Shown here piece by piece: positions 842 through 26,200 of a DNA stretch of 64,000 bases (within the stretch, counting starts at the first letter, position 1; each line of letters begins with the position of its first letter). Made by a program: the position numbers and the translations under genes. The notes under the pieces were generated by a model. The model worked only from the letters and a program-made list of their open reading frames with translations, did not search any database and had not been told where the DNA came from. This DNA is from Echinarachnius parma. Taxonomy: Eukaryota; Echinodermata; Echinoidea; Clypeasteroida; Echinarachniidae. The stretch is from positions 27,184 through 91,183 of the forward strand of contig JBAMJV010007703.1 in assembly GCA_037951105.1 (NCBI GenBank), given 5' to 3'.

Positions 842-3800
842 CTATAACATGAGAGGAAATACAACAGGAATTAGATATATTGGCCTACATGTACCATATG
901 GCTGCCCTCGGTTAGTATGCTCCTCAGGGAGTTGAGATGTTGGGTATGTGTGTTCCTCTACCACTTCATCACTGACCTTATGCAACCCTCTGTAAACAGT
1001 GAAGAGAATACAACAACAATTGGATTATATTGAACTACAATGTGGTTGTATGCTCCCCAGGGAGTTGAGATGTTGGGTTCCTCTGTATATCTCCACCACC
1101 TCCTCATCACTCACTTGGTGCAACCCTCTATAAACAGGGAAGAAAATATAACAGCAATTTGTTTAAATATTGACCCATTACATGGATGCTCTTGGTTAGT
1201 ATGCTCCTCAGGGATTTGAGATGTTGGGCATGTGTGTTCCTCTGTACATCCCCACCACCTCCTCATCACTCACTTGATGCAACCCTCTATAAACAGGGAA
1301 GAAAATATAACAGCAATTTGTTTAAATATTGACCCATTACATGGATGCTCTTGGTTAGTATGCTCCCTAGGGAGTTGAGATGATGGGTATGTGTGTTCCT
1401 CTGAACATCTCCACCACTTCATCACTAACTTGATGCAACACAAATGCTGATCACACAGGGAAGAAAATACAACAGCAATTGTATTATATTGACCCTATTA
1501 TATGGATGTTCTTGGTTAGTATGCTCCTAGGGATTGAGATGTTGGGTATGTGTGTTCTTCTGTACATATCTACCACCTCCTCATCACTTACTTGATGCAA
1601 CCCTCTATAAACAGAGAAGAAATACAACAGCAATTTGTTTAAATATTGACCCTATTACATGGATGTTCTTGGTTAGTATGCTCCCCAGGGAGTTGAGATG
1701 CTGTTGAAGAAGTTGAAGCATGATGATCTGATGATCATAATCGCTATGTTGTAGGTTGAGAAATAGAAGGGTTTTACAATGTAAGTTATGGAAGGAACAT
1801 AAATTGATTCATGTTGATGTATTGTATAGCTACTATGGGTTGTAATGCTCCCCAAGGAGTGGAGAAAGAGTACAAGATGACTGTGTTTTAATATGTGTAC
1901 GAGTAACTACCATCCTCACTTTCAATTTCCTTCCTTAGTTACAATTATTCTGTGTCTTCACCTCCTTCCATCACCCTTTTGTAATCATTTGTCTTCATAC
2001 TCTACTGTCTACATGTCATTTTCCCTCTGAAAATGATTATTCTAGGACCAAAAGGTCAGGCCCCCAACTAATGTTGATATAATTATACAATTGCATCTGA
2101 CAAACTTTAGATGCAAACTTTAGAGTTAGATAGTATAAGACATATTATGATCCTACCTCCAAACTGTTCCGAGCTGAACATGATGAAATGCGTCCACCTT
2201 CAGTAGCACACCCTGTGGACAAACAGGTAGAAAAAGGGGGGGGGGAAATATGATGCATTTGGTCATTGTATTAATTCTGACATATTGAAATAATGCGAAT
2301 CTGCAGAAGGGATTACAATCATAACATTTAAGCATTTGCAGTCATCATTTTAATTACTGAATAAATTAACAAATGAAACTAATTTTAAGGCTGTTACCAT
2401 TTCAAGCATTTTATTCAAACTTATTAAATTAATAAATAATCAAAGAGTCATAAAATGACATTCAAATAGGAAGAAAATTAAAAATCACTATTACTACAAG
2501 ATGAAATTTGTAAACGACATTTGATCACAAAACAAATATTTAACTCAGTGATCCACAGATCTACATCCGAATCCTTCAACCCGCACTTTATTGAGACAGA
2601 AGACAATACTAGCTACCAAATGTCTGAAAATTTCAGAGGTAAACATCTGCATTGTGATAAAAATGTGTTAGTTTCTTAGCAAATCATAATGCAGATGAAC
2701 TTTCATGATAACAAAAACATTTTAAAGACTTTGCGCTCCTGGATACTTACCTTTTTCGTGTCAAAGTGCAGACCGCGAATGGGAAAGTCTGGATTGAACG
2801 GCATGTCCTCGATACCTGGTGGAAACTGCAAAAAATACAAATAACAATTAAATACTATTAGTACTCATCTTATGGTTGATCTGTAAATTTATTTGTTCAG
2901 ATTGGTTACAAATTAAATTCATTTCAAAATTAAGTGCAACTGAGTCAGAACAGTCTCTTTAAGTTGCATCCAGTATCCACTACCTTAATGGATCAAATGG
3001 CTTTTTAATGACCCCATTGGGCCGTTGTGAATGCATTACGCATGTGAACTATGCATGTTTATGAGCACTACATGTACATACTTCTAAGAAAGGTAGCTCC
3101 TGTTGCATTATAATAATGAACCCTTTAACAAACATCTATAGATTGATATACCATAAACAAGCTAAGAGTTCAATGCACTAATTCAATCTTTTAAAAAGGG
3201 TAAAAATTAAAATGTATTTTTCGGGGGCTACTTTTCAAGCTTGCCTGCATGAAAATGACACCCAAAAATTTGATTTGCATTGAACTCAATACAAATTTCC
3301 GGGGGCTCTTTAATGATTTTCGGGGGCGAATTCCCCCCCGAGCCCCCTTGAATTGTTTTCACTGCAATCTTAGCACCTCTGTCCTTCATACCATGTGGTA
3401 GCAAGAAGGTATTGCAATTCAATCATTTATATCCCCATGCTATATTGAGTATGCCCCATTCAGGAATAGTACCCAAACTACTCTGGCTGGGGTCTATGAG
3501 AACATGAGATGTACCAACCAAAGTCAAATCATCTCCTATTAGTTAAGATATTCAGATTCGTCCAAATATTGCATACCGTATTTGCCGGTGTATAAAACGC
3601 ACCTGTGTATTAACCGCACCCCCATTAAAAAAAAAAAAAAAATTGAAAAAAGTGCGGTTAATACGGTATTAACCGCACCAGTGTATTAACCGCACCCCCC
3701 TTTTTCTTCTTTTTTTTGTTGAAAAAGGTGCGGTTAATACACCAGCAAATACGGTATATGATAAACCCAAACTATTTCCACTTGAATGTTGATTCAGCAT

Positions 3801-6800
3801 ATAACCATGAAGCTTGAGTAGAATTTATCATCAAAGCCAAACAATGTCTATTTTTAACATTTTGATACAAACAATAGAATATCCTTTTTAACCCATCAAG
3901 AACCCACATATTTGTGGGTTGGTAGTCCTACACTTCAGCAAGAAGTTATATGAGGTATACAAGGAGAAAGAGCATACAAAATTAAATTTAAATTGGCAAC
4001 ACATTGTGATATTTTAAAAACAGATCTCGCATTCCAATTGGCAACTTTGCTGCAAAGTCACTTCATATTTGTTGTAAATTGTAATTACTAAATATTTTCC
4101 ACCTATTTTTCTGTCATTAAAGGGAAATTTTCCCCATCATCTATTTACCTTTGATTAATTTCTCTACACATTAAACATAATTTCATGCAAATATTTCCAA
4201 TGTTTGCCCTCTGAACAAAGGAGGGGCATCATTCAAAGTCAATCGCTGTATGGGCTATTCCCATTCATCGCGTATAGCATGAAGACTGCCATTATATTGT
4301 TTGAAACCCGGATTTAGAGCGATCCTAGTTTCATAAACATCAATGGCAGCCTCCTTGGTGTTCACGATGATTGGGATTATCCCGTACAGCGAGTGACTTT
4401 GAATGATGCTCATCCCTTGCTCAAAAGGCCAATGTTGGTCGTATTTGCATGAAATTGTGTTTTAATGTTTAGAGAACATAATCAAAGGTGATTATTTGTT
4501 GGGGAAAATGTCCCTTTAAAAGGTTTTTAAAAATTAGGAATTGCCAATTTGTAGAGGAAAACAATGATCAATTTTGCCTTTAAATAGCTCTCGTCCCTTG
4601 GGAGTTGTTAAATAAAATAGTATGAATGCTTAAAAATGCTTTTAAAAAATTAAGTACAAATAAGGGAATAGCATGGTAATACAATGGGTGATTTCAAGTA
4701 TGGTGTTTGGGGTTGGTGTTTATTGAACACTAACACCGGCCTTAGGCGCCATATTTGAAATCCCCCAATGTTACTGTATACCATCCTAACACAAAGTCAT
4801 CTCAAATATGGTGCCTAAGGCCGGTGTTAGTGTTTAATAAGCACTAACACCAACCCCAAACACCATACTTGAAATCACCCATGATTGTATCAGGGAAACT
4901 ATCACCAGTCAAATGTCACTTACTTTCTTGTTTAGGATCAAGTTTTCCAGAGCCAGTTTGTAGATGAGTCGATGAAGTGAATCATTGTAGCAGGCCAGTG
5001 TGTAGTCATAATCAAAGCCATACACCTGAATATCATCCAAACTCACTTCATTGTTGGCGAATACTGTCTTGGGGTCGACCTGGCTCGTGTGGTTGACCGC
5101 TGGATTAAACAAAGAGAAAGTAGAAAAAAGGAATGAATATTGAATAATTGATTATAAATCAAAGATGAGTTGGTTAGGCAGTGTGTGGTCATCAGAGGCA
5201 TAGACCTAACTATTCTGCTTACTGACTTCAGTGTGGGCAAAGACGGTCTTGGGGCCGACCTGGCTTGTGTGGTTGATCACTGGATTGAACAATAAAATTG
5301 TAAAAATGAACAATTATTATCAATAAATTGATTCATCAAAGACCAGCTTATTATAAGAAAATCTTAGACTGTGTAAAAAGCCAGTATTAATTAGTAATTA
5401 GTAACCATAGTATAGACCTGAATATCTTTGAACATGGTTGACAAATACTGTCTTAGGGTCGACTTGGCTTATGTGGTTGACCGCTTGATTAAAGAAAGAA
5501 GAAATAGGAGAAATAAAGAATTATTATTTGGTGTTCTGAATTTAGATTAATTATATTCTTCTTGATGATTGTAATACAATTACATCATTGATTCAGTGGC
5601 ACTATTCAATAAACCCATCTAAAAGTGCCGATTGTTGTTTTTCGTAACAACAATCCATCACACACGTGGAAGTTCGGATCAAGTAGCATCCCCGAGAAGG
5701 ATGAGCATCCCCATCTTGGTATTAAGAGAACTCCAACGCACATTAACTTGACGCATAGCATCATGCAGAGTGGAAGCAAAACTTTCTACAGTCTAACTGG
5801 CTCAGGAGTGAAACGCCGGGGATTGTCACCACCTATTCTTGCCCTTCTCTGGGAGATTTATGTTGTACCACGAATGTTATATGGAGTGGAAATACTCGAC
5901 CTGCACAAGCAAGAGAGAGCTACGGTGGACAAATACCAAAACCAGGTTTTCAAGACTCTGCTGGGTCTGCCCAGATCCACTTGTTCAGAAGCAGTCACCC
6001 TCCTTACAGGTCTTCCTCCATTGTCAACTACCATTATAGACCTGCTTAATCTCCGTCTTCTTGGCAAGCTGCTTGCTTTGCCTCACACCAGGGTAGAATC
6101 AAGGCATTTCTATCATATGCTATGCCATCATCCTCAATCCCCTACATTGAAGAGATTTAAAGAAACTCTGCAAAAGTATCATCTGCCAGAGCTTGCTGAG
6201 CTACCAGAGGTACAGCTAACCTACCTAACCTAGAAGAGAAGGGTATCTTCTTGTGCGGCAGACCAGCACATAGCTTCCATCACAGCCCAGGAGGTTCAAG
6301 AACACTCTACCCTCTTCCTTTTCGAAGGCGTAAATCTGCCCAAGGATCATAGAATCTTCCCTTCTATTGTCGACCCTCCGCATCTCAGGGAGGCTATTGT
6401 CATCAAAGCACAGCTGCTTACAGGCACTTACTTAACTAGAGCTAGGCAGGCAAAAGTTACTAAAAGCGTAGTTGATGTTACATGTCCGGGATGTCTACAA
6501 GCTGTCAAGACTGTCACTCACTTTGTCAGCGCATGCAAGACCTACAAGATAGAGCGGGAGCATTTGAGGGCAACTACCGTAGAACACCATCGTCAAGCAC
6601 CCCCCAAGCACCTATACGCATCTTGCTTTTAAAGACGTTTCCATGAGATTCACCTCCATTATTATCCTCATGAATATTCCTCACCATTATTTGCATTCTT
6701 GATTAAAGTTTCCCGTTTGGACAGAGAGCGGGCGCTCTTTAAAAGCAAGATGCACATAGGTGATTGGGGGGTGCTTGACGATGGTGTTCTACGGTATCCC

Positions 6801-9199
6801 AGCTGTAGTAATCTCATTCCTGGCTGGCCTCTCTTCTGCTGTGAAGGAAGTGGAGGAGACAAGGTTCATCCTTCTTGGTGTTCTGGACCATTCTCATATC
6901 GTTATGCCTGATTTTCTAGCTGTAACACTCCAGTTTATTTTGGATATTCACCGTAAACGTGCATTAGTCCTCACTTCTGGCAACTCATCTTAGTGTACAT
7001 ACAGTCTGTACTGAAATAGTACAGTTCTCCAGGCTGGAGGAATTCAAGAAGAAGATTGCGTTCCATATTCATTTTAAATCCTAAATTGTATAATTATTGT
7101 AATCCTGATTCAGTTGCAATATTAGTGTGTGTAATTCAAAATGATTGCTTTTTTTATTTTATAGTTCATATTATTTCAATAGACTGTGGATGATAAGAGT
7201 AGGAATATATATTTAAATTAGTTCTAACACATTTCTTGTGTTTTGAATTGAGATTAATCTGATGATAATTATATTTGTCTTATCAATTGTGCTTCATATG
7301 CCATATTGCAAATATAAAATGTAACAATATTGATTCATTTGCAATGTTAGTGACACTATTTGATAGTATTAGGTAATTTGCTTAATGTGTACAATTTAAT
7401 TGATTGTTTATTTATAGTTCATATGATTTAAAACATTGTGGATAATAATACAAATTGTCATTGAAATCAGTGGTACAAACAGGCCCGTAGCCAGGGGGAT
7501 TGTGTTGGGTGCATACGCAATTGGGGTCTTCCCCCCCCCCCCCCCCCCCTCCCTTTACACAACTAAACCGGTGGTGGTCTCTTTACACACCCCCTCTTTG
7601 GAAAATCCTGGCTACAGGCCTATCAAATGGTTTTTTGTGTTTTTTATTTAGTAGGATTGAGAAGGATGCATTTTCATCAAGTCTCACTCTTTAGAACTAA
7701 TTTCTGATTCTATACCCTATAAGAATATATTTGAAACAATATGAAATTTGTTCTACAAAGTGAGCCTTGATGACAATACATTCATCTCAAAAAGTGGCAA
7801 AAGTCACCCTGATTTACGGTACATGGTAAATTGCTAGACACAAAGCAAGATCATTGATTCAAGAGATAGTATGGTTCTGGTTTTGTGGGCATAACAATGT
7901 TTGTCAGAGAGGTAGAGGAAATCTGAGCATAAAAATCGCAACAACCTCAATAATTAAAGTGGAAAGCATTATATTTTAAATTGCATCCATAGGAGAGTAT
8001 AAACTACTAATTTTCTCCAGGCTGTGTTTATATGAATTGTCAATGCATTGTGATAGTATTTTGTAAAGATCAGCTTAGTGAAAAAAGGGAGAAATTGTTC
8101 CCCCTTTATTTTACAGCTTTTCACCATAAATTACATCTACAAATCTATTTACAATCCATAATTTCAAACCTGTGGATGGAGGTAACTTCAATTTTTCTAC
8201 CAATCTTGACTTTACTGCTTGAGTGCAATTGTGGTGCACCCAAAAGTGCAAAACAATCAAGTAAATTTGTCCAACATGGCTCAAATACAAAACTTGTAAG
8301 AGACCCTGGCCCTGGATAGATAATTAAACAATTCAGTGAGTCATTCAAAGTTCAAACCAATTTAATTGATTTTGAAGTGATTAATCATTAAAAGCACTTT
8401 TGTGCTTAGCCGTATCTAATTTTCAAGGTGATTATAATACAATTTTATTAACAGATAAATTTAGCTTTTCCAAACATGATGTTTCAATAATTCTGTTACA
8501 GATTTTAAAGAGTGAATAAACTCAAAGAAGGCAATCAATTTCAGTACTGCTGTCACTATTCAATTTCAGACCTAGGCAACACATTCATAGATCACAGCCT
8601 CACAACGACATGCACACATTATTCTTCATATTTTATTTGGGACTTTCAATATTTGATAAGAGGTTTTAGTAAATAAATTTCAGAGTCAAAATTTGAAAAT
8701 TAAAAAACAATGTTTATTTCACATAATTATTTTGAATACAAAGTGATGAACTAGTGAAAATGTTGGTGGGTGTTTCAGCAATAATGAATCTAAAATCAAA
8801 AGGCCGGGATTTGTAACATTTGCGGTCATAAATCACCATAACTTTAGACCTGCTTGAGCTATTTTGATGCACGGCCGCTGAGCCTGAGCTGAGCGCTGCA
8901 ACATGTCACTGTCAATTGCCCAGGCCAGTGGTGTCCCGTGCCCAACACCAAGACATGCGCTGTTCATGCACTGACAGCGTGCAATTAACAAACACAACAC
9001 ATCACTTACCATATCCATCGCAGAAGCTTCTCAGAGAGTTGTATTCCTCCCAAAGATCACCATCTGTCAAAGTCTTGGTAGCTCCACTCAGTCTCCGGAC
9101 AATCTTAGAATCAGAATTTATCCTGTTGGAGAAGAACCGCTGGATAATTGGTGATTTTCGGACAAATTTTCGCCCGAAAATTTTGAGAGCAGACGCCAT
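745..9199 (-). CDS. NT5DC2/NT5DC3-like 5'-nucleotidase domain protein (5' five exons, partial)
   Basis: Five exons join in frame: 9010-9199, 4924-5099, 2751-2825, 2157-2212 and 745-841, and all junctions have GT/AG ends. The start is ATG at 9199, with G at -3 and +4. The first 25 or so residues are basic, hydroxylated and free of acidic residues (MASALKIFGRKFVRK...), which fits a mitochondrial targeting peptide. Exon 2 carries GFDYDYTLA, the HAD nucleophile motif DxDxT/V of the cytosolic-nucleotidase-like family. Exons 3-5 follow the family order: IRGLHFD, LKVDAFHHVQLGT and SDEEVVEMYGGTHIP. Human NT5DC2/3 are about 520-550 residues; roughly 200 are present here, and the rest lies left of base 745. 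The HAD fold suggests phosphatase activity, but the substrate of this subfamily is not established. NT5DC2 versus NT5DC3 cannot be decided. Introns are rich in repeats and in decayed copies of exons 2 and 5. Confidence 0.88.
900..1710. repeat. Tandem array derived from NT5DC-like exon 5 plus flank (about 155-bp unit)
   Basis: At least five degenerate units begin near 938, 1071, 1223, 1383 and 1540. Each repeats the last 60-70 bp of exon 5 (complement of GTGAGTGATGAGGAGGTGG), its acceptor side, and intron sequence such as TTGGTTAGTATGCTCC and GGGAGTTGAGATG. The units lack the exon's donor end, so they read as partial exon copies and not as intact alternative exons. Confidence 0.82.
2157..2212 (-). 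CDS. NT5DC-like exon 4
   Basis: A 56-bp exon encoding GVLLKVDAFHHVQLGTVW(R), the conserved 'LMKIDAFHYIQLGT' block of NT5DC2/3. It ends in phase 2 and joins exon 5 to complete the Arg codon. Confidence 0.88.
2751..2825 (-). CDS. NT5DC-like exon 3
   Basis: A 75-bp exon of exactly 25 codons. It encodes FPPGIEDMPFNPDFPIRGLH then FDTKK, matching the family block 'NPxFAIRGLHYD'. It has a TTTTTTGCAG acceptor and a GTAAGT donor. Confidence 0.88.
3215..3372. repeat. Dispersed G-rich repeat ('GGGGGCTACTTTTCAAGC' family)
   Basis: This family recurs at about 46790-46960, 48610-48935, 51018-51170, 52740-52900 and 62316-62490, with fragments near 60330 and 62640-62790. Shared blocks are GGGGGCTACTTTTCAAGCTT, TGCATGAAAAT and CGGGGGCGAAT..CGCCC. 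No terminal repeat or target duplication was resolved. Confidence 0.65.
3576..3754. mobile_element. MITE, CCGTATTTG family, TA target duplication
   Basis: The left end CCGTATTTGCCGGTGTAT and the right end ATACACCAGCAAATACGG are inverted, and TA dinucleotides flank both. Inside are alternating GTGCGGTTAATAC/GTATTAACCGCAC segments and A/T runs. The length is 179 bp with no coding capacity. A second copy is at 31687-32052. Confidence 0.78.
4118..4519. repeat. About 400-bp foldback element in NT5DC-like intron 2
   Basis: The outer ends TTAAAGGGAAATTTTCCCC and GGGGAAAATGTCCCTTTAAA pair. The inversion continues inward through CATCATTCAAAGTCAATCGC against GCGAGTGACTTTGAATGATG. The arms are nearly 190 bp, so a transcript would form one long imperfect hairpin. 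Confidence 0.72.
4685..4881. repeat. Near-perfect 83-bp-arm hairpin in NT5DC-like intron 2
   Basis: TGGGTGATTTCAAGTATGGT at the left pairs with ACCATACTTGAAATCACCCA at the right. The arms include CTAACACCGGCCTTAGG and CCTAAGGCCGGTGTTAG, with a loop of about 30 bp. It sits only 42 bp downstream of exon 2. It is either a young foldback MITE or a structured intronic hairpin. Confidence 0.8.
4924..5099 (-). CDS. NT5DC-like exon 2 (catalytic DxDxT motif)
   Basis: 176 bp, entered in phase 1 and left at a codon boundary (AAG AAA | GTAAGT). It encodes VNHTSQVDPKTVFANNEVSL followed by the nucleophile motif FDYDYTLA. Two decayed copies of its 5' part lie just upstream in intron 1. Confidence 0.9.
5160..5500. 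pseudogene. Two decayed copies of NT5DC-like exon 2
   Basis: On the minus strand, the copy ending near 5281 reads INHTSQVGPKTVFAHTEVS then a stop; the nucleophile motif has become SDDHT. The copy ending near 5491 reads VNHISQVDPKTVFVNH, then shifts frame before DIQVY. Both keep the AATCCAG- or AATCAAG-type acceptor side. Unit spacing is about 190-210 bp. They are non-functional exon relics upstream of the true exon. Confidence 0.8.
5625..6993 (+). pseudogene. Non-LTR retrotransposon ORF2 C-terminal remnant
   Basis: The first block (5625-6233) encodes the region behind reverse-transcriptase catalysis, with HLGIK and a PRMLYGVEIL...LLGLPRSTCSEA..LLTGLPPL pattern typical of LINE ORF2. After a stop at 6234 and a frame change, 6262-6575 continues to a C-x2-C-x8-H-x4-C knuckle (CPGCLQAV...H...C), the usual LINE C-terminal zinc knuckle. 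A 218-bp foldback element then interrupts it, and the last 65 or so codons (to 6993) follow. It is 5'-truncated, frameshifted and interrupted, so it is dead. The clade is uncertain; the I/Jockey-like layout is only a guess. It is inserted in NT5DC-like intron 1 in the antisense direction. Confidence 0.75.
6577..6794. mobile_element. Foldback MITE inserted in the LINE remnant
   Basis: Termini CCGTAGAACACCATCGTCAA and TTGACGATGGTGTTCTACGG are perfect inverted copies flanked by TA. The arms continue through GCACCCCCC and the GCATCTTGCTTTTAAAG/CTTTAAAAGCAAGATGC pair. It splits the LINE reading frame, so it arrived after the LINE. Confidence 0.82.
7480..7621. mobile_element. Short hAT-like MITE
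   Basis: CAGGCCCGTAGCCAGG at the left mirrors CCTGGCTACAGGCCT at the right. The middle holds a 19-bp C-run (7531-7549). A clean 8-bp target duplication is not visible, so the hAT assignment rests on the terminal sequence style only. Confidence 0.6.
9010..9199 (-). CDS. NT5DC-like exon 1 (start codon, putative mitochondrial presequence)
   Basis: It encodes 63 codons plus one base (phase 1) and ends ...CDGYG before a GTAAGT donor at 9009. The basic N-terminus is followed by a segment ending DLWEEYNSLRSF, which resembles the pre-nucleotidase region of NT5DC3 (LWERYREAK). Confidence 0.85.
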
Positions 9200-12020: not shown

Positions 12021-12328
12021 TGTTTGGTGGCATCTGTGGGAGTTTGTTTACGGGCAAGTAAGAGTCCTGTTGGTGAATAACATTACAACACATATACATT
12101 CTTTACAAAAACACATTTTATTGTAGATATACAAATGAATATCGTTTGACACAAGTATATGATCACCATCAATTCATTTAAAGGAACTTAGTAACATTGT
12201 CCAAATCCTCAAAATCCGATTGGAATTCTAGCGGTTCCCTCATACCTTGTTGTATTTGTATTAACAATGAAAGCATAGGACAGGTTTTTTTTTTTTTTTT
12301 AATGCTGACACCTTCACCACTAGAAAAC

Positions 12329-13293: not shown

Positions 13294-14447
13294 TCAGAAA
13301 AATTGATCTCCATCTGAACAAGCATCGCCTGTGCGAGCCATCATGTGGGCAATAAGATCACTTATCTGAGGAAAGATCTTCCCACACATGCTGCAAGTAA
13401 AAGGTCTTTTACCAGTATGTGTGATCATGTGACGTTTAAGAGTACTTCTTTGATAGAAAGCCCATGAACACACTGTGCAAGTGAAAGGCTTATTACCAGT
13501 ATGAATGATTGCATGGTACTTCAGATTCCCTTTAGTATAGAAGGTCTTTTCACACACATGGCAACTGAAAGGCCTATTACCAGTATGAATGATTGCATGC
13601 TTCTTCAGTGCACCTTTCAGGGTGAAAGTCCTTTGACACACATGGCAACTGAAAGGCCTATTACCAGTATGAATGATTGCATGCTTCTTCAGTGCACCTT
13701 TCAGGGTGAAAGTCCTTTGACACACATGGCAACTGAAAGGCCTATTACCCGTATGAATGATTGCATGCTTCTTCAGTGCACCTTTCAGGGTGAAAGTCCT
13801 TTGACACACATGGCAACTGAAAGGCCTATTACCAGTATGAATGATTGCATGCTTCTTCAGTGCACCTTTCAGGGTGAAAGTCTTTTGACACACATGGCAA
13901 CTGAAGGTCTTCTTATTTTCAGATTTCTTCATCAGAAAAGATGCGTGATCTCCATCTGAACAAGCATCACCTGTGCGAGCCATCATGTGGGCAATAAGAT
14001 CACTTATCTGAGGAAAGATCTTCCCACACATGCTGCAAGTAAAAGGTCTTTTACCAGTATGTGTGATCATGTGATGCTTAAGAGTACTTCTTTGATAGAA
14101 AGCCCATGAACACACTGTGCAAGTGAAAGGCTTATTACCAGTATGAGTGATTGCATGGTACTTCAGATTCCCTTTAGTATAGAAGGTCTTTTGACACACA
14201 TGGCAACTGAAAGGCCTCGCCTTTGCATGTTTTGCATCACTTTGCGCAGAAGAAGAATCAACGGGCACGCCGCCACCATCTTCGTCCATTTCATCATTCT
14301 TCATTTCCAAATGATCCTCATTTTGTTTGCCTATGTGTATACTTGGCTGAATCCTTGACCTACTTGTACCTGTAGCATCATCCTGTAGGGCCTGCTCTTC
14401 TCTCACTTTTGTAAGATGGTCTTGGCCTGCATTATGATCAGCATTTC
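13294..14447 (-). CDS. Zinc-finger gene terminal exon (ten C2H2 fingers)
   Basis: The acceptor TCTATTTCAG precedes GAAATGC at 14447, and the frame runs to TGA at 13294. Finger motifs include CHVCQKTF, CTVCSWAF and CSMCGKIF. The 84-bp finger unit at about 13575-13905 is repeated four times almost exactly. Confidence 0.9.
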
Positions 14448-15249
14448 CTGAAATAGAACACACAAAAGAATATTGGAATGTTAGCGACAATTTTTTATTT
14501 CATAAGCAAATATTGATCTCATTATCAACCCGAAAACATAATGCCCCTGGCAACTTCACTGTGGAGGCATAAAAACGTTTTTTTGTTGTTACATTGTTTT
14601 TCTTACCTGAATAATTGGACCTGGTATCATCATGATCACGTAAGGAAGACAATCGTCTAATATCTAATTTCTGTAGTGTGATCTTCGCCGTCTTGAGTTT
14701 AGGAAATGCATCCTCAGTCCCTTTGTTGGCAGAAAGATCATAGTTCAGCCAGAAATCCTTTTCTCCATCAAAATGGTAAAAGCCATCCTCTACAAATGAG
14801 ATATCAGAAAGAAACAAGAAATACATTGATTTAGTTTGAAACATGGCATAATTCATATTCTCTCTAGATTTGTCAAATAAAAAATAAAAAGCACTTAAAT
14901 TTTGTTTGATAGAACATGTTAAAAAGCACACTTTATGTACAGGAATTATAATTTGTATGTTATATAGTAAGGTACTATTTGTGTATGTTATAGTAAGGTA
15001 CTATTTTGGAACAATATGACACAAATGAGTCATGATAATGCAAACATTTACATAGTTTGTTCCTTTAATAAAATCTTCAGGCCTATTGGGCATACTCTTG
15101 GTCTCTTGCAAATATGATCCTACCTCCTGCCATATCGTCCTCCTCCTGTTTGAACTCCAGTGACACATTTAAGTATGTCTCTTCACTCTCTTGATCAGGT
15201 GGCTCCATCTTCACAGACTTCAGTCCAGGGATTTCCACTTTACTGGCAT
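13294..15249 (-). CDS. C2H2 zinc-finger protein (3' three exons, partial)
   Basis: Exons 15124-15249, 14607-14789 and 13294-14447 join in frame; all introns are phase 1. About 487 residues are visible. The N-terminal part has two SUMO-consensus-like sites, VKME followed by acidic residues and FKQEEDD, and no recognised domain. The last exon encodes ten fingers of form C-x2-C-x12-H-x3-H with HTGNRPF/HTGNKPF linkers. Fingers 4-7 are near-identical and fingers 1-3 and 8-10 are duplicate trios. Fingers 3 and 10 have lost the final His (HMMAR). It is probably a nuclear DNA-binding regulator; the target is unknown. A 4-bp loss relative to the internal duplicate brings the stop at 13294 and strands an 11th finger downstream. 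The 5' exons were not found. Confidence 0.88.
14607..14789 (-). CDS. Zinc-finger gene internal exon
   Basis: 183 bp, phase 1 at both ends, encoding EDGFYHFDGEKDFWLNYDLS and a basic/hydroxylated stretch ending NYSG. Acceptor TTTGTAG, donor GTAAGA. It has no known domain; joining to both neighbours keeps the frame open. Confidence 0.75.
15124..15249 (-). CDS. Zinc-finger gene internal exon with SUMO-site-like motifs
   Basis: 126 bp encoding an acidic segment with VKMEPPDQESEE and FKQEEDD. Donor GCAGGAG|GTAGGA. The acceptor side (TTTTTCTACATCCGAAG) is less typical, so the upstream edge is tentative. Confidence 0.65.
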
Positions 15250-15395: not shown

Positions 15396-15877
15396 ACCCC
15401 TTTAGTACAGTTTTGGTAAGGCTGAACTTAAGTAACCAAAACCTGCACGTAACATTACAAACTAATAGTTATTAACTCCACCATGTTCGAAAGGTATACA
15501 AATTACAAACAACTAAGTAAAAAGCCTGTTATCATTAAAAAAAGAGCCATTAAAACACAAGAGGGCGCTCTCTAAAAAGGCATGTTTTGATGAAATAATG
15601 ATTAAATAGAGAGATCATCAACAACTATTTAAAAACCGCATTTGAACATTTTTGAAAAAGTGTAAGCATTTAAAAATTAAAATGTTTTTACGATTTATTA
15701 CGATCAGATATATTTATTGATATTTCAGCCATTTCTGAACCGATTTTGACCAAATAAAGTTTATTCTGCGATTAAAATTGCATGTTCTTTCAAATTCGAC
15801 ACTCAGTTTTTCATTACCTCACAAAAAAAATTGTGTTGTGCAGCGCCCTCTCTACCAAAACTGAACTACCCCTTTAA
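15396..15877. mobile_element. About 480-bp MITE, CCCCTTTAGTACAGTTTTGG family
   Basis: Left CCCCTTTAGTACAGTTTTGG and right CCAAAACTGAACTACCCCTT are inverted. Inside are AGAGGGCGCTCTCTAAAAAG and GCAGCGCCCTCTCTACC. A second copy in the opposite orientation is at 22792-24007. No frame is seen. Confidence 0.75.
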
Positions 15878-16257
15878 CTGCAATCATACAATGTCCCCCC
15901 TTGGGGAACCTTGATATTCATGAGGACCGCTATTCATAGTACATCGATACATAGATCACTGCATTACTGGTCATCACAGCCTTGTCATTTTAAGTTTAAC
16001 CAAAGACTGTTCAATATGGTTTTCCATTAATTATAAATGAGTGGGGACAAAATGTCCCATACGTCATACGTCTTTTCCAAAATCAATTAGAACCTGCAAG
16101 ACTAGCACTCATTAATGAAACTTTGATTTAATAAACTTGTGTAATGCACCTTTTCCGAAACTGAGTTACAAATTGTTTTCAGTAAATTACTTTCAGAGCA
16201 CTCTCAACTTAAAAATTATCTCACTGTAACTGGTCCCATACATAACGAGATACATTT

Positions 16258-16822
16258 TCTTTTAAAAGGATGTAAACATCGTCCAAATCCTCAAAACTGA
16301 TTAGGAACTTGAGCAGTTCTCTCATACCTTGTTGTATTCCTATCCCGGGGGGGGGGGGGGGGGGGGGGGGTACTCACGTATATTGGGTATACGGGGATGT
16401 GCCGCTGGGAAGGGTGACTTTTTCAAGAAAGATCCTAAGTAGACATGGGTCCCCTTTTCATCAAAAAAATCCTTAGACATGGGTCCCTTTTTTCATATTT
16501 CCCCTTTTTTATACGGGATTTTTGGATTTGCCGATGTGAAATTGCCAAATTTTTCAAGCTCGCTACGCTCGCTAACTTAAAACCACAAAATTTGCGGGAA
16601 ATACACCCAAAACATGCGCCGCAGGCGAAAAAAATCCTTAGACATGGGTCCATTTTTCGCAAAAGGACCCTTAGATGTGGGTATGGGTTTAGAGGTCTCA
16701 GCCGCACACCCCCGTCCGACTATAATCTGAGTACCCCCCCCCCCCCCCCCCGGGATTCCTATCCTATAACAATGGGTCGAATGGGACAGGTTTCGGTTTT
16801 TCAAATTTCCTTTTCGTGAAGA
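16258..16822. mobile_element. Truncated 'AAAGGGATCTAGTAAC' MITE carrying a nested insertion
   Basis: The sequence ATCGTCCAAATCCTCAAAAC..CTTGTTGTATTC, then after the insertion GGGACAGGTTTCGGTTTTTC, matches the complement of 21560-21700. It stops abruptly near 16822, next to the left inverted repeat of the motif-array region. Confidence 0.65.
16346..16754. mobile_element. TIR element with 10-bp direct flank repeat
   Basis: Direct repeats ATTCCTATCC at 16336-16345 and 16755-16764 bracket an element that starts with a G-run (16347-16370) and GTACTCACG and ends GAGTACC plus a C-run and GGG. Inside is TATTGGGTATACGGGGATGT and three copies of CCTTAGACATGGGTCC or its variants. The 10-bp duplication and precise nesting support transposition. 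The superfamily is not assigned. Confidence 0.75.
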
Positions 16823-17226
16823 AAGAATATATGGGTCAGATTTTTGAAATATGCACTTTTGGCCATTTCCAGACCTTGAGCGCTTCTATCATTTGCTGTG
16901 TCTCACCATTAACTCTGATATACCTGTTTTTGGTCTCATATTAAAGAGTATTATTAAGGCTTTTAGAAAATGTATAGTTTTATATCATTTCAAACATTTG
17001 GTTTCATGCCACAGGACCTCAAATGTACAAAATAACATACATGTAAATTGGCATTTTCTACAAAATTATGAATTTTTTTAACCTGATTAAAAAAATATTA
17101 ATTAAAGGCATTCATGTCTATATTTTCTATCTTACATGTCTTGAGCATGTATCATATAAGAATTGGCGGTAGAGCGGCATTGATATGATCTCAGGGTAAA
17201 TTTCAATAGGAAAGGTCATAATAAGT

Positions 17227-18117
17227 GAACGTCCGTGAACATACATTAAAATCCATACGACCAGAATTCTACTTAGTTGTCAAAACAAAAACTATTGCCA
17301 AAACTAAGGGTTGAATCCACTGAACACATTTTACAAAAATTGTTGGCCAACTACTCCTGCTCGCGGAGTAACATTTTTTTGTATGAAATTATACTGGATT
17401 TCGTCACGGACGTTTTATCGTCTTGTATCATCACTGCTCAGCGAAGTGCATCCTAGTCATCAATTGCTGGGGTCAGTCTGATGAACTCACAGTAGGGCCA
17501 CAGTAGTTTGCCTATTTGAAAACTATCTATCAAATACAATGTTTGGTTTAGGCCGAAAACTGATCTTCGTGAACGTCCGTGATGAAAACGAACGTCCGGC
17601 AAGAGTAGACCCAATTTCGAATCTGAGGCTGCTTATCTGCACGTAGACACCGGTACAGCAATTTTATTTGGCAAGCAGCTAACCAAGAAGCTATATCAGG
17701 CATTTTCGAAGCCTTTTGACAACTATTTATGATACGGACGTTCGCTCGGACGTTCGTTCACGGACGTTCGTTCACGGACGTTCGTTCACGGACGTTCGAT
17801 CATGAAAATTGTTCTAATAATGTTACCATGTTAAACGCTCACATCAAGTTGATACCGTTTGATGTTGTTAGTACATTGTTATGTCTCTCATATCCCAGAT
17901 AAATTTATTTCCTGCAAATCATTTAACTGTAACAAACGTATGAAATGTTGTGCTCACGGACGTTCGTTCGTCATTTATGGCCCAAAAAATCTTAGTAAAA
18001 GTTCAAGTACTGGCACAATTTTTTGACAGCAGGTGGCCCTTGTGTGTGCCTTTCGACCCAGGTCACTGCCAACCACACATGAATATGTTGATTTTTAGTC
18101 ACCATCACGGAGGTTCG
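17227..18117. repeat. Left CACGGACGTTCG motif cluster
   Basis: Copies of CACGGACGTTCG or its complement CGAACGTCCGTG (some variant) start near 17227, 17404, 17570, 17589, 17734, 17746, 17759, 17773, 17787, 17955 and 18106. At 17731-17798 five copies are tandem with a 14-bp unit (one 12-bp), TTCACGGACGTTCG. Most copies here read in the CACGGACGTTCG direction. Confidence 0.9.
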
Positions 18118-19802
18118 TTTTACATTTGATCACCTTGCTTAGCTGTTTTGTAATACCCCTAGATATTATATTTACTTCTACCCGTGCAGCGTAGACATTA
18201 TACTAAAGGAAGGCAAACCCCAAGATTATGATTGTGCACAGTCGCAGGCCTACAAACGAAAGAAAGCTGTTCAAAACATAATGGTAAAAAGGGGGTATAT
18301 TGCGCAATAACAACATTGCAACCGAAGGTCTGAGTGGAAACTGTTGCCCCACCCTCTGCAAAACTTGAGACTGTCGGCTCCTCCTCTGCTGCAGGCTTTG
18401 AGACTGTTTTCTCATCTACCTGTCGGATTTAAGTCCAACTAAATGGCTGTATGACGCCAGTTGTTTGAAAAGAAGAGGTACATCACAAAGATCGTCAGCT
18501 ATACTTGCGAGAGGATAGCGACTTGCTTTACAATATTGACTGTATTACGAAAAAGCAACGAATACATGGATATCCCTCTTCCCCCCCCCCCCCCCCTCAA
18601 AAAAAGAAAATAAATCATTAAAATAATAATGATAATAATGATAATACAATATAATCATAATTTATGCCTGATGTGCAAAGGCGCAATATCCAGCCCGTAA
18701 GTATGCAGATCTAATAGAGACAAACGCATTTATTATTATGATGACGTATGAATCGGTTTTCAAAGCATCTCTGCTTCAATCTCTTATAGTGCCAAATTAT
18801 GTGGTATCGTTTGAAATTATATCTAGCAAGGGAATAGATTTGTTGGACTTCTTCCATTTAATAGAGATTGTAAGATTTATGCATTATTTTGATGACTTCA
18901 TCGTAACATTACTTATAATATTGGCTGTTTTGTTCTTTCCTGATATATCAAAAATATTGTTTTTGCTAGGATTATTATAATATTGTACAGTCAACTAAAT
19001 TTCAGCTCGCGCAATATTTATAATAAACCATTCAAGGTCAGCATTGTTCTTAATTCTAATTGAAACAATGAAACCGATTGGAGGTTAACAATTAGGAAAC
19101 GAGATGTGGGTCAGGAAACATCGGAATTAACTATCAACGTGATTATTTGCAAGATTTAACTTTGACATATTAATGTTATATAACAATTTATAATCTCTGC
19201 AAATTAGATTTAAACAGTTAGCCCTTTAAATGATTGCATTTATTATTATAATTATGCGATTGGTTTTACATTTTATTAAAATATTCTTTCTAAATATAAT
19301 AATAAAATGCGATAACAAACACATAAAATATGTTTAGCGTAGCGTATATATTTAGCGTAATGGTTTCTATATGTCTAATATTTCTTTATACAAAACATAT
19401 AGCCTACATGTATGATCTAAAATGCAATCTATATGTATTTATTTAAGAAATAAGTTATACGAGTATATTATTTACTTTGCTCATGGCTTTTGTTACCCTC
19501 AGTTTGTTTTTTGTTTTGTGAAAATACATATAAGCAATTCAGCCATATAGCTGGAATAGATAAATATATGTATTTTCAATTAATAAACCATATATGAATT
19601 GAATCGAAATACATGTACAACATACACAAACCAAAATAATAGATTATATATGGGTCTCTCAAAGTCAAAATACATCTTAAATATTTATGGCAAGGTTTGA
19701 AACGTGTGATAGGCATATATTAACATAATGTTGGCACTTACATTTATTTCTGTAATTAATTGACTCGAGATGGGACACTTGGGTACCACTATAGGCAATT
19801 CG

Positions 19803-20954
19803 AGAACGTCCGTGAAATTAATACGAACGTCCGTGACATTAAGACTCATGTGAGAAACCGTATTCTGGTAACAGGAAAATGGCCTTTATTCTGATTATAC
19901 ATGTTATTTAGGATTGCAGAAATGTTGTAAAATCATTTATTTACAGAAGTATAGTGGCATTTCTGTTAATATAGAGTGCACAACCGGGGAAAGCCGGTGC
20001 AAAATTAGGGGTTACGATTTCCACAGGTCCACTAAGAGTGATAGTTATAGCAGACATGTGATTATAATTAATTCAGATAGCTAAAATCATATCAACTGAT
20101 AAATGTATACGTTTTATATTGGTCAGGAGGAGATTCAAATAAATGTTGTCATCAATTTCTATAAGACTGTTCAGGCAGAGAACGTCCGTGAAATTTGTGC
20201 GAACGTCCGTGAAATTGTAATTAAAAACAATATAATAAGAAAGAGGGACCAGGCGACTTGGAAATGTTACTTTTATATCTGACTAGGATGTATACATGGT
20301 CTTTAGCTTAAATATAATAGGAATAGATAAAGTATTATCATCATAATGTTCTATAAGCATTAAATCAATTTAAACCAATAATAGGACTCATTATAACGAC
20401 CAGGTCCATGTAAAAACCAAACCATTTTTAAAGATTTATTGCAATGTTCAATTTTGTTTGTATAATGACCCTGTTTTAAAGCCATATACGAAGAATAGAA
20501 ACTCTTTTTGATGAGATCAGATCATTCTGCCAACATTCTTGTTTCTGGCGAACGTCCGTGAGCGATATGGGAACGTCCGTGATGAAAACTATACTTTCTT
20601 TGGTCATGTAATTATGCAATATATGATCTAGACAGCAATTGATCCTGTTAACATGCACATTAAAATATGTGATACGGGAATACGAGCGTATATAGGTGCG
20701 TTCCTAAAAAATGCGGCTAAAGAAAAGCAAAGGTTCCGAATAACACATTATTAAAAAAAATATTTAACTATTCAGTCAAAGTTTGGACGTTTGTATTTTC
20801 TATTTGGCAAATAAAACACAATCCACGTTTGGCATACAGAGAGAAGCAAGTCTTAGAAGTAAATTGTCCGAATATATAAGCTGTATATGACAGAACATAA
20901 ATGAGATATATGGGTACTAAATCTATGTCTACATAATCCCTCACGGACGTTCGC
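19803..20954. repeat. Right CACGGACGTTCG motif cluster (three phased pairs)
   Basis: Pairs of GAACGTCCGTGA start at 19803/19825, 20180/20201 and 20550/20571, a spacing of 22, 21 and 21 bp. A single reverse copy is at 20942. Several copies share the extended form GAACGTCCGTGAAATT, or CGTCCGTGATGAAAAC, which also occurs at 17571. Confidence 0.9.
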
Positions 20955-21320
20955 CTTTTGGAGATGGGTTACTTCAACAGTGAATAAAAACGGAACCACA
21001 TGGAGTTTCCCAGTATAATGGGGTACGCCTGAAAGCTAGGATTGCATGCTTTCACATTAGATAGATGTCTTTGAATTAAAAAAATAAATTGTATTTTACC
21101 CTGTTTGGGCCGAAAAGTGCACTTTTCAAAATTCTGACCCAAATACATGCTTAAAATAGCTTGTAATGGCAAAATTTGAAAAACTGAATGTCCGATTTCA
21201 ATCAAACCCGGCACCTGAATGTATCTTAGGGGACTGATGTAGCCATACAATTTTTGGGTCATGAGGTTAAGTTCAAGGTCACAGAATTCATACCGTAGAT
21301 GCGAAATAGCTTGTAATTGT

Positions 21321-21700
21321 TAAAGGGATCTAGTAACTTTGTTGACATGTGCAAAAAGTGATGAATGGTTGATGCAATGTATATTGTTGTTATCTCATAT
21401 GTCCACAGGGTATTGTGTGAAAATTTCAAGTCAAATGGACATTGTATGGCCAAGTAATGAGCAAAAATGCAAAGTGATATTCAGTAACTCACTACACTCA
21501 CTTTGTACACGGAAGAAAAACTCGCCCGGAGTTTTTCTTATCTGAATACTTCAATCATATCTTTGTAACGAAAGGGAAATTTGAAAAACCGACACCTGTC
21601 CCATGATTTTATTGTTAATACGAATACAACAAGATATAAGGGAACCCCTAGAATAAAAATTTTATTTTGACGATTTGGACAATGTTACTAAGTCCCTTTA
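21321..21700. mobile_element. MITE, AAAGGGATCTAGTAAC family
   Basis: Left TAAAGGGATCTAGTAACTTT and right GTTACTAAGTCCCTTTA are inverted. The best-preserved relative is at 37629-37985; truncated relatives are at about 12180-12290, 16258-16822 and 55956-55995. It splits an older dispersed repeat whose parts (AATAGCTTGTAATTG) lie on both sides. Confidence 0.72.
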
Positions 21701-22157
21701 AAACTTGAGAAAGTAATTTCAGATTTCAATCACACTTGGTACCTGAATGTATCTTGGGTTCATGCAGTCAAAAGTCAAGGTCACATGACTCATTATACCT
21801 GTTTATGCCGAAATAGCTTGTAATTGTGATGAAATGATGATCGAGTTTACAGTATTAATTCAGTACATGTTAATTTTGGCTTGATTCAAAAATTGCGTGA
21901 TAGCTGAGGCATAAAACCCATCTAGTTCTCTAAATATTTTGTAGAAGATAGAGATATTACATATCTGTACCAAACAACAAATGTTATAGGCTGGAAATTA
22001 CATAGCAACCGCTGTGGTACCTCCCGACGATAGGGACGCATCTAGCGATCTAGTGTTCAGTTCCTGTGGAAATCCTTTTTTTATTACAAGCCATATCTTT
22101 TTCATTTCTTTGTCATTTTGGTTTTTAATTTTTGTTTTCATTTGTGTGAAATTGCAG

Positions 22158-22250: not shown

Positions 22251-23233
22251 GTAAAGTGTAAATGGGGACCGGGTAGGTCTGTATACTCTTGAGGGCACTT
22301 TATGGCTGCCAGAACACAGAAATACAATATAGAAATACTAGAAGCCCAACTGAATAAGTGTATGACGTCTTTAATAACCACAGATAGGCCGCGCCTCCAG
22401 CTTCGATACTTGCAGCGGTGACAAGCACATATATCCATGCAAATGAGGTAAAACGTCAGAGTTTGTTCATTTAAATAAATTACCATATACAGTCAACCCT
22501 GTGTATAGTGGCCACCCAAGGGAGTCAAGAATAGTGGCCATTGCCAGGTGCCACTATAGACAGGTTCAATAGCAATGATGGCCACTATAGACAGGTTGGC
22601 TGCTATAGACAGGTGGCCGCTAAGACAGGTTTGACTGTATGTGAATTCATTGGATAAAATAACACATTACACAAAAAAGACGCTTAGTAATTTTAATTCG
22701 ACGCTATTATTTTAGTTACGTGCTGTACCAATAGTTATGCGATTTCATTCAGTTTAATTGCGCACAGTCAAGAAATGGGGGATTTCCCTATTAAAGGGGT
22801 AGTTCAATTTTGGTAGAGAGGGCGCTGCACATCACAATTTTTTTGTGAGGTAATGAAAAACTGAGGGTCGAATTTGAGAGAACATGCAATTTTAATGGCA
22901 GAATAAACTTTATTTGGTCAAAATCGGTCCAGAAACGGCTGAAATATCAATAAATATATCTGATCTTATAAATATTTGGGGCCCAAATAATTAGATGAAT
23001 TTTTCAAAAAATTAAAAATATGCATACACTTTTTCAAAAATTTTCAAAAGCATTTTTTAAATAGTTGTTGATGATCTCTCTATTTAATCATGATTTCAAT
23101 AAAACATCACATGCATAATTTTATATGAAAAATGGTTAAAACCAATGCAGACTTGCCAACCGTTCCGTTTTTAACGGAATTGTCCCGTTTTTTAAGTTTT
23201 TATAGCCATCAAAAACGGAACGTTCCGATTTTG

Positions 23234-23264
<31 letters not shown>

Positions 23265-26200
23265 TACCATCCGATATCTGTCCGTTTTTTCAATTGTAAT
23301 CAACAGGGCAGTGCCATGTTAGTCTACAAACCGCTGTCAAGATGAAAGCCTTCAGATATCTCATCACAAATGATTCTTCTAAATTTGGCTCTTACCAGGT
23401 TTAATCTATTCATTAATCCTCTTACCATTTGTTTATTTGAACATTTTGTTACATGTAAAATACCTTTACTTTAGCAATAGATTGGCAGGGTTCCATTTTC
23501 TGACCGAATCTATAGATTTATTTATTAATTTTTTTTTTAAATTTATTTATTTATTTATTTTTTTTTGTTGTGAAAATGAAAACGTTTTTGCCGATGCCGG
23601 TCGGTTAACCGTCGTGTAACCGTTTCACTACAGCCCTAGTATGCACCAGATTGCACAATTGTAAGTCAAAAAATGCAAAAGCTCCCTACCGTGGGAGGGG
23701 GGACACCCCCCTCCCACACCCTCCCCCCCTCGGTCGCTCCGCTCCCGCGTGCTCGGTCGCTTCGCTCCCTCGCAATCGGGTGTTCAGTTTTCTGACTTTC
23801 AAATGTTGGCAAGTATGCCAATGCCTTTTTAGAGAGCGCCCTCTTGTGTTTTAATGGCTCTTTTTTAATGATAATGGGCTTTTTACTTAGTCGTTTGTAA
23901 TTTTGTTTACCTTTCTAGCATGGCTGGGTTATAACTATTAGTTTATAATGTTACTGTCCAGGTTTGGTTACTAAAGTTCAGCCTTACCAAAACTGTACTA
24001 CCCCTTTATAAGCAAATATTGTTTTTCATTGTGACGTCATAACAAAAGCATACACATAAATTTGTGTGTGATAATTGTGAAGTTCGCGCCCGCGGATACT
24101 TAGGAACGAAATTACACTAATATTGCTATGGCAGCAAGTGTCATAACATAGACTTTGAGTCTTGTCAACTTTTGCCAATTTGACCAACTTCCATTTTGAG
24201 ATGGGGGGCCTGTGCCAGAATGCCTTGCTCCCCATGGAGGAGAAAGTGCATGCCATATACTGTATATATTTGATTGATTGTGAGCGTTTCCGATGACTGG
24301 AGTAAAAATATAATTGTATGAAAGCACTCTGAGATGATGATCAATCATATATTATAGGTATATAAATCATCTGTATTTATTCAAATCATTCAAATGTTAT
24401 AAAGAAAGGTTGAAACCCAGGTCCATGGCAAAAGTTGGATATGAATTTGCATTCTGCAATGAATATAGCATATTATTATTATTGTACAAATGTATGCGGG
24501 TGTAGAATTGTTGCACTAAAAAAATGTTTAGCACGTACGGAACCCTTTGCAAAGTGTTGGGATATCTATTTAATATCAACCCTGTGTTCTTTGGGTAGTG
24601 GTCCGCGTTAAGGCTTCCCTAGCTAACCCTAGCTGGGACTAGGAAAACTGTATGTTGCTAACTTTACAATTTCGTTTCCTAGTATGGAAATGAGATTGCG
24701 GGTATCTCTTCCACTTGAGTGGAGTGAGATGCATGTATTTGCCATGATTTGTTTAAGAAATTTATTAGCATGGTTATAGAGCTGAGCAATCAACTGTTAT
24801 GAGATAATACTCATGAAAAGGCTTTCTTTTCAACAGCAAAATAAAGGAAAATGTTAAAAACTTAAAATATCATACACATAAATGTACAGAACTTATGGCT
24901 GGGTGGGTATCCGTCAAAGGAAAAAGCGGGGCAATTTTGTATCTAAATTGCAATGTTGATCACTTTCATAAATTTTGTTCAATGATTGTCATATCGCATG
25001 CACACTTTGCTTTGTATCAAGAAACCTTTCATTATTCTAATTGCTTTTTTTCCTGATACTAAACAAAAATAGGGAGAAGAGAAAGAATTCAGGTCGTCAT
25101 AGAAGTTCTGGCAGAACAGAACTGTCTGTGCCCTGGACTACTGGTGAACCACTATGTGCTCATGATTTTCGGCCAGCAAAGCAGCCACGGTGGTATAGTG
25201 ACAGTGCGCAAAACAGACTACATCCAACCCTTCTCCTACGAAACTCGTAATGAAATCGTTGAAAGCTGTCAACAAGGTATATGGTTATCATCTTTTCTAA
25301 TCGATTAATCAAAGAATTTAATATTAACACATCTGAGAAGTAATACATGATGGTTTCAGTCAATGACGCAGCCCCAGTGGTATTGTGACTTTGCGAAATG
25401 GACTACATTCCAGGGGCTGATCTAGCTTTTTGCTAAGGGGGGGGTTTGACCCAATGACGATGCGGAGCATCGTCCACGAGCTGCGATTTTTTTTTGCTAT
25501 ATTCAACCCCCGTAAGTAATTTTTGTTAACTTTTTTCACTTATAGCCGCGAAGCGGCGATTTTTTTTTTGCTATTTTAAACCCCCGTAAGTGATTTTTGT
25601 TCACTTTTTTCACTGATAGCCGCGAAGCGGCGATTTTTTTTTGCTATTTTGAACCCCCGTAAGTGATTTTTTGTCACTTTTTTCACTGATACATTTTCAC
25701 TTGGCAGCCCAAGGGGGGGGGTTTAAACCCCCTAAACCCCCCCCCCCCCGTAGATCCGCGCCTGCATTCAATTTTAAACCTTGTCCTACGAAACTTGTGA
25801 ATATCTTGAATATGCTGCCAAAATGAAATGTCTTATCTCTTAGCACTCTGTGTGCCCAACAGTTGAATTGCTGGCAGTGGCGTAATAACACGGGGGGGGG
25901 GGGGGGGGGGGAGGGGCACGTACCCCCTAATAATTTGAAGAAGAAAAAAACGGAAACATAGGGGGACATTTTTTTGAAAAAACAAAATACAAAATACAAG
26001 TGTGCCCTGCCCCCCCCCCCCCCCCCCCCCCAATCAGAATCAGAGCGACCACGCTATGCCACTGATGGCTGGAATAGGGGGTTGAAATTTGCGGTAGAAT
26101 ATTATGGTCCTAGGCTGGGCGTTCATGAATAATCATAGGGTAATGACGTCACATCAGACTTTAGTGAAACCTCTGCATGATACATTTACTAAATAAACCG

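Follow-up and report, generated by a model that had tools for sequence, protein, structure and literature searches.

The 64-kb stretch of Echinarachnius parma DNA analysed here (64,000 nucleotides of contig JBAMJV010007703.1, hereafter the window) contains a dense cluster of a CpG-rich 12-mer, CACGGACGTTCG. This cluster very probably represents the paired subterminal arrays of a non-autonomous transposon family of the cut-and-paste type, in which the 12-mers would be bound by a transposase or helper protein supplied in trans. The copies of the family are dispersed through the genome and colinear, and they have inverted termini, short target duplications and a palindromic target preference. One empty target was found, the positions of the motif are near-fixed and inherited changes within it are nearly absent. 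On these sequence features the family is best assigned as a non-autonomous terminal inverted repeat (TIR), or class II, DNA transposon, an assignment made without a superfamily: the elements have TIRs, a short duplication of fixed length, dispersed copies together with an empty site, and no transposase gene of their own in the open reading frames (ORFs) examined.

At up to two mismatches the 12-mer has 19 matches in the window, 18 of which lie in an island at 17226-20953 (eight exact, eight with one mismatch and two with two), while the single outside match, at 58307, has two mismatches. Shuffled versions of the window gave a mean of 0.77 matches and a maximum of four, and in 100 shuffles a count of 19 was never reached. 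All 17 occurrences of the core CGGACGT in the window are within the island. The window as a whole has a CpG observed/expected ratio of 0.59. A first-pass annotation of this DNA had reported 18 copies in a gene-free 3.7-kb island, and the count is borne out. Its further statement that the motif was seen nowhere else holds for the window, apart from 58307, but does not extend to the genome, where 5376 places match at up to one mismatch, compared to 2472 for a reversed control pattern.

The arrangement of the sites was also as had been described, with a tandem block, an empty middle and a right cluster of pairs. The left array has 11 sites on mixed strands (17226-18117), identified by motif scan and lying at near-equal offsets from the left end in other copies. 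Those at 17226, 17570 and 17589 are on the minus strand, and those at 17405, 17733, 17745, 17759, 17773, 17787, 17955 and 18106 on the plus strand. Both the tandem-repeat and the motif scans find a plus-strand block of motif units within it, at 17733-17798, with a period of 14 and steps of 12 and 14 bp. The AT-rich middle (18118-19802) is free of the motif and no coding domain was found in it. The right array consists of three minus-strand pairs, each with 21 bp from start to start, at 19803-19835 (starts 19803 and 19824), 20179-20211 (20179 and 20200) and 20549-20581 (20549 and 20570), and of an outermost single site on the plus strand, opposite in orientation to the pairs, at 20942-20953. 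Most sites are dispersed 150-390 bp apart, with spacings of approximately 150-195 bp on the left and 370-390 bp on the right. The one short 14-bp tandem block might raise the suspicion of a satellite or minisatellite of the ordinary kind, and the first-pass annotation had named an ordinary satellite among the findings that would refute its proposal. This dispersal of the sites, and the inverted termini and target duplications that delimit the copies, make it extremely improbable.

The island is only the inner part of a larger unit, a plus-strand element of 4308 bp at 16833-21140 that begins GGGTCAGA and ends TCTGACCC. Its left TIR (16833-16864, plus strand) and right TIR (21109-21140, minus strand) derive from an inverted match of 87% between 16828-16864 and 21145-21108 on the opposite strand. 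The TIRs are thus approximately 32-37 bp long, and in 18 other copies their outermost bases are the same with few changes. Alignments of those copies with the window, which are colinear with the element, begin within a few bases of 16828 and finish near 21145. The element is flanked by ATAT on the left (16829-16832) and by AAAT, with one mismatch to it, on the right (21141-21144). In the window copy the left terminus is of the type of one subfamily (N1) and the right terminus of the other (N2; both are described below). The same combination is found in L014, which at 96.7% identity is also the closest relative among the copies fetched.

The family was characterised in the window's own assembly (1.2 Gb, 14790 contigs). 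Approximately 100 of the places matching the 12-mer were listed, all exact, and most of these are in islands in which intervals recur, at close to 168 to one side and close to 350, 375 and 391 to the other. Each of the 18 islands fetched can be aligned to the window between approximately 16828 and 21145, with 85-97% identity in the longer pieces, and they differ mainly by insertions or deletions and nested insertions, with a large deletion as well in L021. Many islands with the same left and right arrangement were the outcome which, according to the first-pass annotation, would support a transposon, and its proposal of a transposon subterminal array is upheld by the layout, the inverted termini and the matched target duplications. 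The same result bears on its alternative of an enhancer-like array at a single locus, serving a gene near 22.1 kb. Clustered sites upstream of an exon-like stretch, as the annotation had described, would be in keeping with that idea, but the same array is found at many places in the genome, 18 of 18 fetched islands were the same element, and the sites lie at similar distances from the ends on other contigs. The array belongs to a dispersed repeat and we give the single-locus explanation almost no weight, although the window copy alone may have been exapted.

Two common types of left end were found, in exact form, at 89 and 97 places, and two types of right end at 83 and 132 places (about 100 of the 132 were listed); reversed controls gave none. 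A 24-base right terminus occurs at 246 places. Copies whose common ends are exact number at least about 190-250. A 374-bp query from the left end, used in a DNA search, returned 550 candidates, the best 40 of which are all at least 98% identical. When the listed left and right places were paired by eye, most copies measured either approximately 3.8-3.9 kb (subfamily N1) or 4.2-4.3 kb (N2), N1 (3.9 kb) being without the segment at 18463-18869 of the window. Among twelve N1 copies, hand-picked by their ends from the pairs whose length is ordinary, pairwise divergence has a median of 1.6%. This low divergence indicates recent movement and points to a family that was probably active recently; the suggestion in the first-pass annotation that the copies could be young is in agreement, at least for the sampled N1 subfamily. 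A literature search on the motif and end sequences listed a single paper, from plant research (PMC7928345), and the family may already be named in Repbase or Dfam.

Both ends were read in 36 copies, namely the window copy, 18 selected by the motif and 17 by their end patterns. An identical 4 bp, always of the form ANNT, is present on both sides in 32 copies. These matched duplications are ATAT in 25 cases and AACT, ATCT, AATT, ACAT, ATTT, AAAT and AGCT in one case each. The consensus of the flanking target is palindromic, RY-ATAT-RY. The same data can be read equally well as a 2-bp duplication, NN, inside A..T, with termini that are then TGGGTCAGA; the 2-bp and 4-bp readings are inseparable from sequence because the empty site they imply is identical. 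Joining the flanks of 19 copies and matching them to the collected sequence gave an uninterrupted target for one, L023, whose flanks match a repeat in L013 at 63 of 74 positions across the junction.

Motif offsets are near-equal in 19 copies, apart from insertions or deletions, nested insertions, the duplication in L009 and the deletion in L021. The majority sequences of N1 and N2 share sites at 395, 574, 738-741, 757-760, 901-904, 913-916, 927-930, 1095-1098 and 1246-1249 from the left end, and at 198 (the outermost single site), 568-569, 589-590, 938-941, 959-962, 1313-1323 and 1334-1344 from the right. Spacing between sites shifts by a few bp between subfamilies and by more in the old copy L057. 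The number of sites is 15-17 in 16 of the 18 other copies; L009 has 19, via an inner duplication, and L021 has eight inside the element, via its deletion. The tandem block contains zero to three exact units among copies. It has one in most of the 18 others and three in the window, which is why the window copy shows 18 sites. L057, an older copy, lacks one of the two sites of the innermost right pair, as do L056 and L058, which suggests, and from this we infer, that this pair arose by a 21-bp duplication.

Between the majority sequences of N1 (12 copies, chosen by their ends) and of the N2 side (13 copies, of which 12 were chosen by the motif and one is the window copy), one of 204 motif columns differs, compared to 187 of 3602 others (p=0.00065), in a test that is only partly free of selection because 12 of the 13 N2-side copies were motif-chosen. 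The sole difference is at an additional, weak site that is specific to N1. L057, which was chosen by its right end and not by the motif, differs from N1 at one of 72 motif positions versus 298 of 1957 elsewhere, or one of 72 versus 165 of 1225 over a shorter stretch, with one missing site (12 positions, a gap) set aside. Within the 12 N1 copies six of 2412 motif cells mismatch compared to 363 of 43390 elsewhere (p=0.0006, cells being treated as independent), made up of three of 991 versus 19 of 1404 in CpG context and three of 1421 versus 344 of 41986 outside it. When the site set was shifted circularly to places clear of the motif, none of 1198 shifts gave a count as low as six (mean 19.7, minimum 7). 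In the mainly motif-picked N2 set (n=13) singletons number seven of 192 in the motif versus 363 of 4090 elsewhere, and shared variants none of 192 versus 141 of 4090. Across the window copy and the 18 motif-picked copies the constancy reaches significance on the right side only (0.0026, compared to 0.19 for the left). Taken together, these sequence comparisons show that inherited changes avoid the motif. Such constancy would be expected if source elements are under selection when they transpose; mutation may also simply be slower at sites that are bound.

We regard the family as non-autonomous because the sequences examined yielded no transposase. The ORFs were assessed by eye and on the basis of their length. 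Three from element copies have no Pfam match at the curated cut-off, and frame 1 of L011 has 67 stops; the description of the island as gene-free agrees with this, as no coding domain was found. Ten larger ORFs, from long copies and C3128, likewise have no Pfam match at the cut-off, the best below it being to 7tm_7 (E=0.00044, 20.1 bits versus a cut-off of 26.6). Among the longer copies, L016, L025, L027, L028, L046, L047 and L048 were read whole or nearly so, as was the inner part of L049, and all of these owe their length to DNA inserted or duplicated within what is otherwise the same element. Five long spans (L029-L033) were read in their middle kb only. That on C6634 holds a second copy, that on C13993, which was read whole as L047, a nested insertion, and the middle kb of that on C2536 an ordinary element beside unmatched sequence, while in the C3155 and C3454 spans the middle kb contains repeat-like sequence only. 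Several pairs of left and right ends approximately 4.5-6 kb apart lie outside the sequence read. Right-type ends were surveyed by eye among 100 listed of the 246 places, and 12 of them fall outside the two common lists. Two of the 12 are known copies (L010 and L013) and seven were fetched in part (L049-L055), comprising four ordinary elements, a nested copy on C2101, approximately 200 bp of end on C2927 and 47 bp on C3128; the other three (C2299, C2510 and C2569) were only paired to listed left ends. A further search by end gave 11 places: C3128, C1047 and C3322 had already been fetched, L056-L059 were fetched from it, and the other four (C2569, C3510, C8200 and C10716) are outside the fetched set.

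There are several points that weigh against the interpretation given here. Four of the 36 copies are without a matching duplication, namely the window copy (ATAT/AAAT), L010, L016 and L037, and the alignment of the L023 flanks to the empty site of L013 has a 1-bp gap just to the left of the junction. The 4.3-kb copies were picked mainly by exact motif and are hence biased, and the cell-wise p-values for N1 depend on the independence of cells. When the N1 variants are counted by event, singletons number six of 204 versus 218 of 3662 (p=0.088) and shared variants none of 204 versus 60 of 3662 (p=0.075), and because these counts are not significant the 12-copy N1 set is by itself only suggestive. 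The end-chosen copy L050 is likewise only suggestive (two of 84 versus 112 of 1436, p=0.08), and nothing can be learned from the short tail of L059 (none of 12 versus 46 of 282, p=0.22). Old copies chosen by their ends have moreover lost sites. L057 is without one (a gap), L056 and L058, which share a right flank and are probably one insertion that was duplicated, retain one site in the 2.6 kb that was read, two sites are seen in the part of L059 that was read, and L053 retains one, with two mismatches, beside a truncation. Not all sites were therefore required for copies to persist. Finally, no transposase or autonomous copy was found in the sequences read, the genome not having been scanned with profiles of transposase families, and an autonomous copy may exist elsewhere; for this reason binding is something that we infer.

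If the 12-mers are binding sites, the following mechanism can be proposed. A transposase or accessory DNA-binding protein would be supplied in trans by an element outside the sequences read, would bind the 12-mers at both ends of the element and would help to join the ends for excision and insertion. Copies that lose sites would cease to act as sources, such that the sites stay intact, and site number could grow by local duplication of the 14-bp tandem units and 21-bp pair units. A different origin for the sites is also conceivable. They could be host transcription factor sites through which the element, or an ancestor of it, acquired a promoter or enhancer, and that were kept since transcribed or open copies transpose more, not via transposase binding. 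The CpG-rich motif within a window with a CpG ratio well below one, the occurrence of sites on both strands and as pairs with 21-bp spacing, and the lack of a gene in the element that would explain two arrays, are all compatible with this. On the other hand, arrays at both ends of an element in which no coding domain was detected resemble arrays of transposase sites, and inherited changes are nearly absent across the whole set of sites. We therefore consider a host factor unlikely, and binding by a transposase or helper remains our preferred explanation.

Known transposons offer a number of parallels. In Tc1/mariner elements insertion is into TA only. If the duplication in the present family is read as 2 bp inside A..T, its centre is TA in 25 of 32 cases, but in the other seven it is not TA. 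Sola2-type elements have AT-rich 4-bp duplications of the form AWWT (PMC3627910), which 28 of the 32 matched duplications fit and ATCT, AACT, ACAT and AGCT do not. Their TIRs are given as 12-13 bp, compared to approximately 32-37 bp here, and the passages of that source dealing with Sola2-type families mention no subterminal array (PMC3627910). The nearest parallel in way of working is the CACTA, or En/Spm, group. According to the relevant parts of the published descriptions, Jozin, a CACTA element of Chenopodium, has a 12-bp motif in 19-23 copies (PMC8978399), and in Spm/En the subterminal repeats, which are cis-determinants of transposition, are recognised by the TNPA protein (PMC2613891). 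The family described here similarly carries a short motif approximately 20 times, near both ends and in both orientations. As in that group, the 12-mer is most likely a cis-acting subterminal binding site for a transposase or helper. Sites here are nonetheless spread over approximately 1.25-1.35 kb at each end, compared to the 159 and 732 bp quoted for the arrays of the soybean CACTA element Tgmt*. Nor do the termini of this family read CACTA; they are GGGTCAGA (or TGGGTCAGA), and the target is duplicated over 4 bp (or 2 bp), not 3. The comparison with CACTA elements drawn in the first-pass annotation thus stands as regards the build of the array, but membership fails because termini and duplication length differ. 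It is also conceivable, though unlikely, that a transposase lineage not yet described recognises each end over more than 1 kb via sparse paired 12-mers approximately one or two nucleosome lengths apart, with end pairing taking place on chromatin and not on naked DNA.

Other repeats surround the element in the window. A miniature inverted-repeat transposable element (MITE)-like repeat with ends TTAAAGGGA.../...TCCCTTTAA is present, whole or in part, at 21317-21703, 16257-16343, 12173-12285, 37624-37990 and 55956-55983, and two of these copies flank the element in inverted orientation, apparently by coincidence. The sequences at 15403-15877 and 22791-24000 are inverted copies, 85-95% identical, of a repeat ending AAAGGGGTAGTTCA..., the right copy carrying an insert of approximately 0.7 kb. 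Both sets (16257 with 21317-21703, and 15403-15877 with 22791-24000) were considered as long termini of the element and rejected; they are unrelated neighbours, because the MITE is also found at 12173, 37624 and 55956 and the ends of other copies match 16833 and 21140. At 16345-16755 approximately 410 bp between long runs of G and of C, which are perfect inverted repeats, split the MITE copy beside the element. Further to the left, a minus-strand ORF of 401 amino acids at 13294-14499 encodes about ten C2H2 zinc fingers, several of them in a near-identical 84-bp tandem repeat.

Some of the other copies are associated with additional sequences of interest. L025 (reverse complement, 3100-7300) and L027 (approximately 3660-8770) have large nested insertions with similar translated stretches, and that in L025 looks palindromic (fold-back). 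The nested insertion of L028 contains a frame of 115 amino acids (reverse complement, 5431-5775) with no Pfam match, which resembles a fragment of a reverse transcriptase (YMDD). Beside the truncated copy L021 there are ORFs of 392 and 536 amino acids (reverse complement, 1-2647) that resemble the polyprotein of a Ty3/Gypsy-type retroelement. In L029 (C6634:118200-119200) sequence internal to the left end is found inside a span opened by another left end, and two element copies seem to adjoin there. L056 and L058 are the same short derivative and right flank on two contigs, with approximately 94-98% identity, and represent either a segmental duplicate or unmerged haplotypes.

For gene regulation at the window locus the cluster is ordinary. 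What had appeared to be an odd island is settled as belonging to a transposon family, one that was probably active recently given its low divergence. Its 12-mers are near-fixed while their surroundings diverge by between 5% (between subfamilies) and 15% (in the oldest copy compared). The family is for this reason an unusually clear natural record of which bases at a transposon end matter, and it should be useful for finding and testing its missing transposase.

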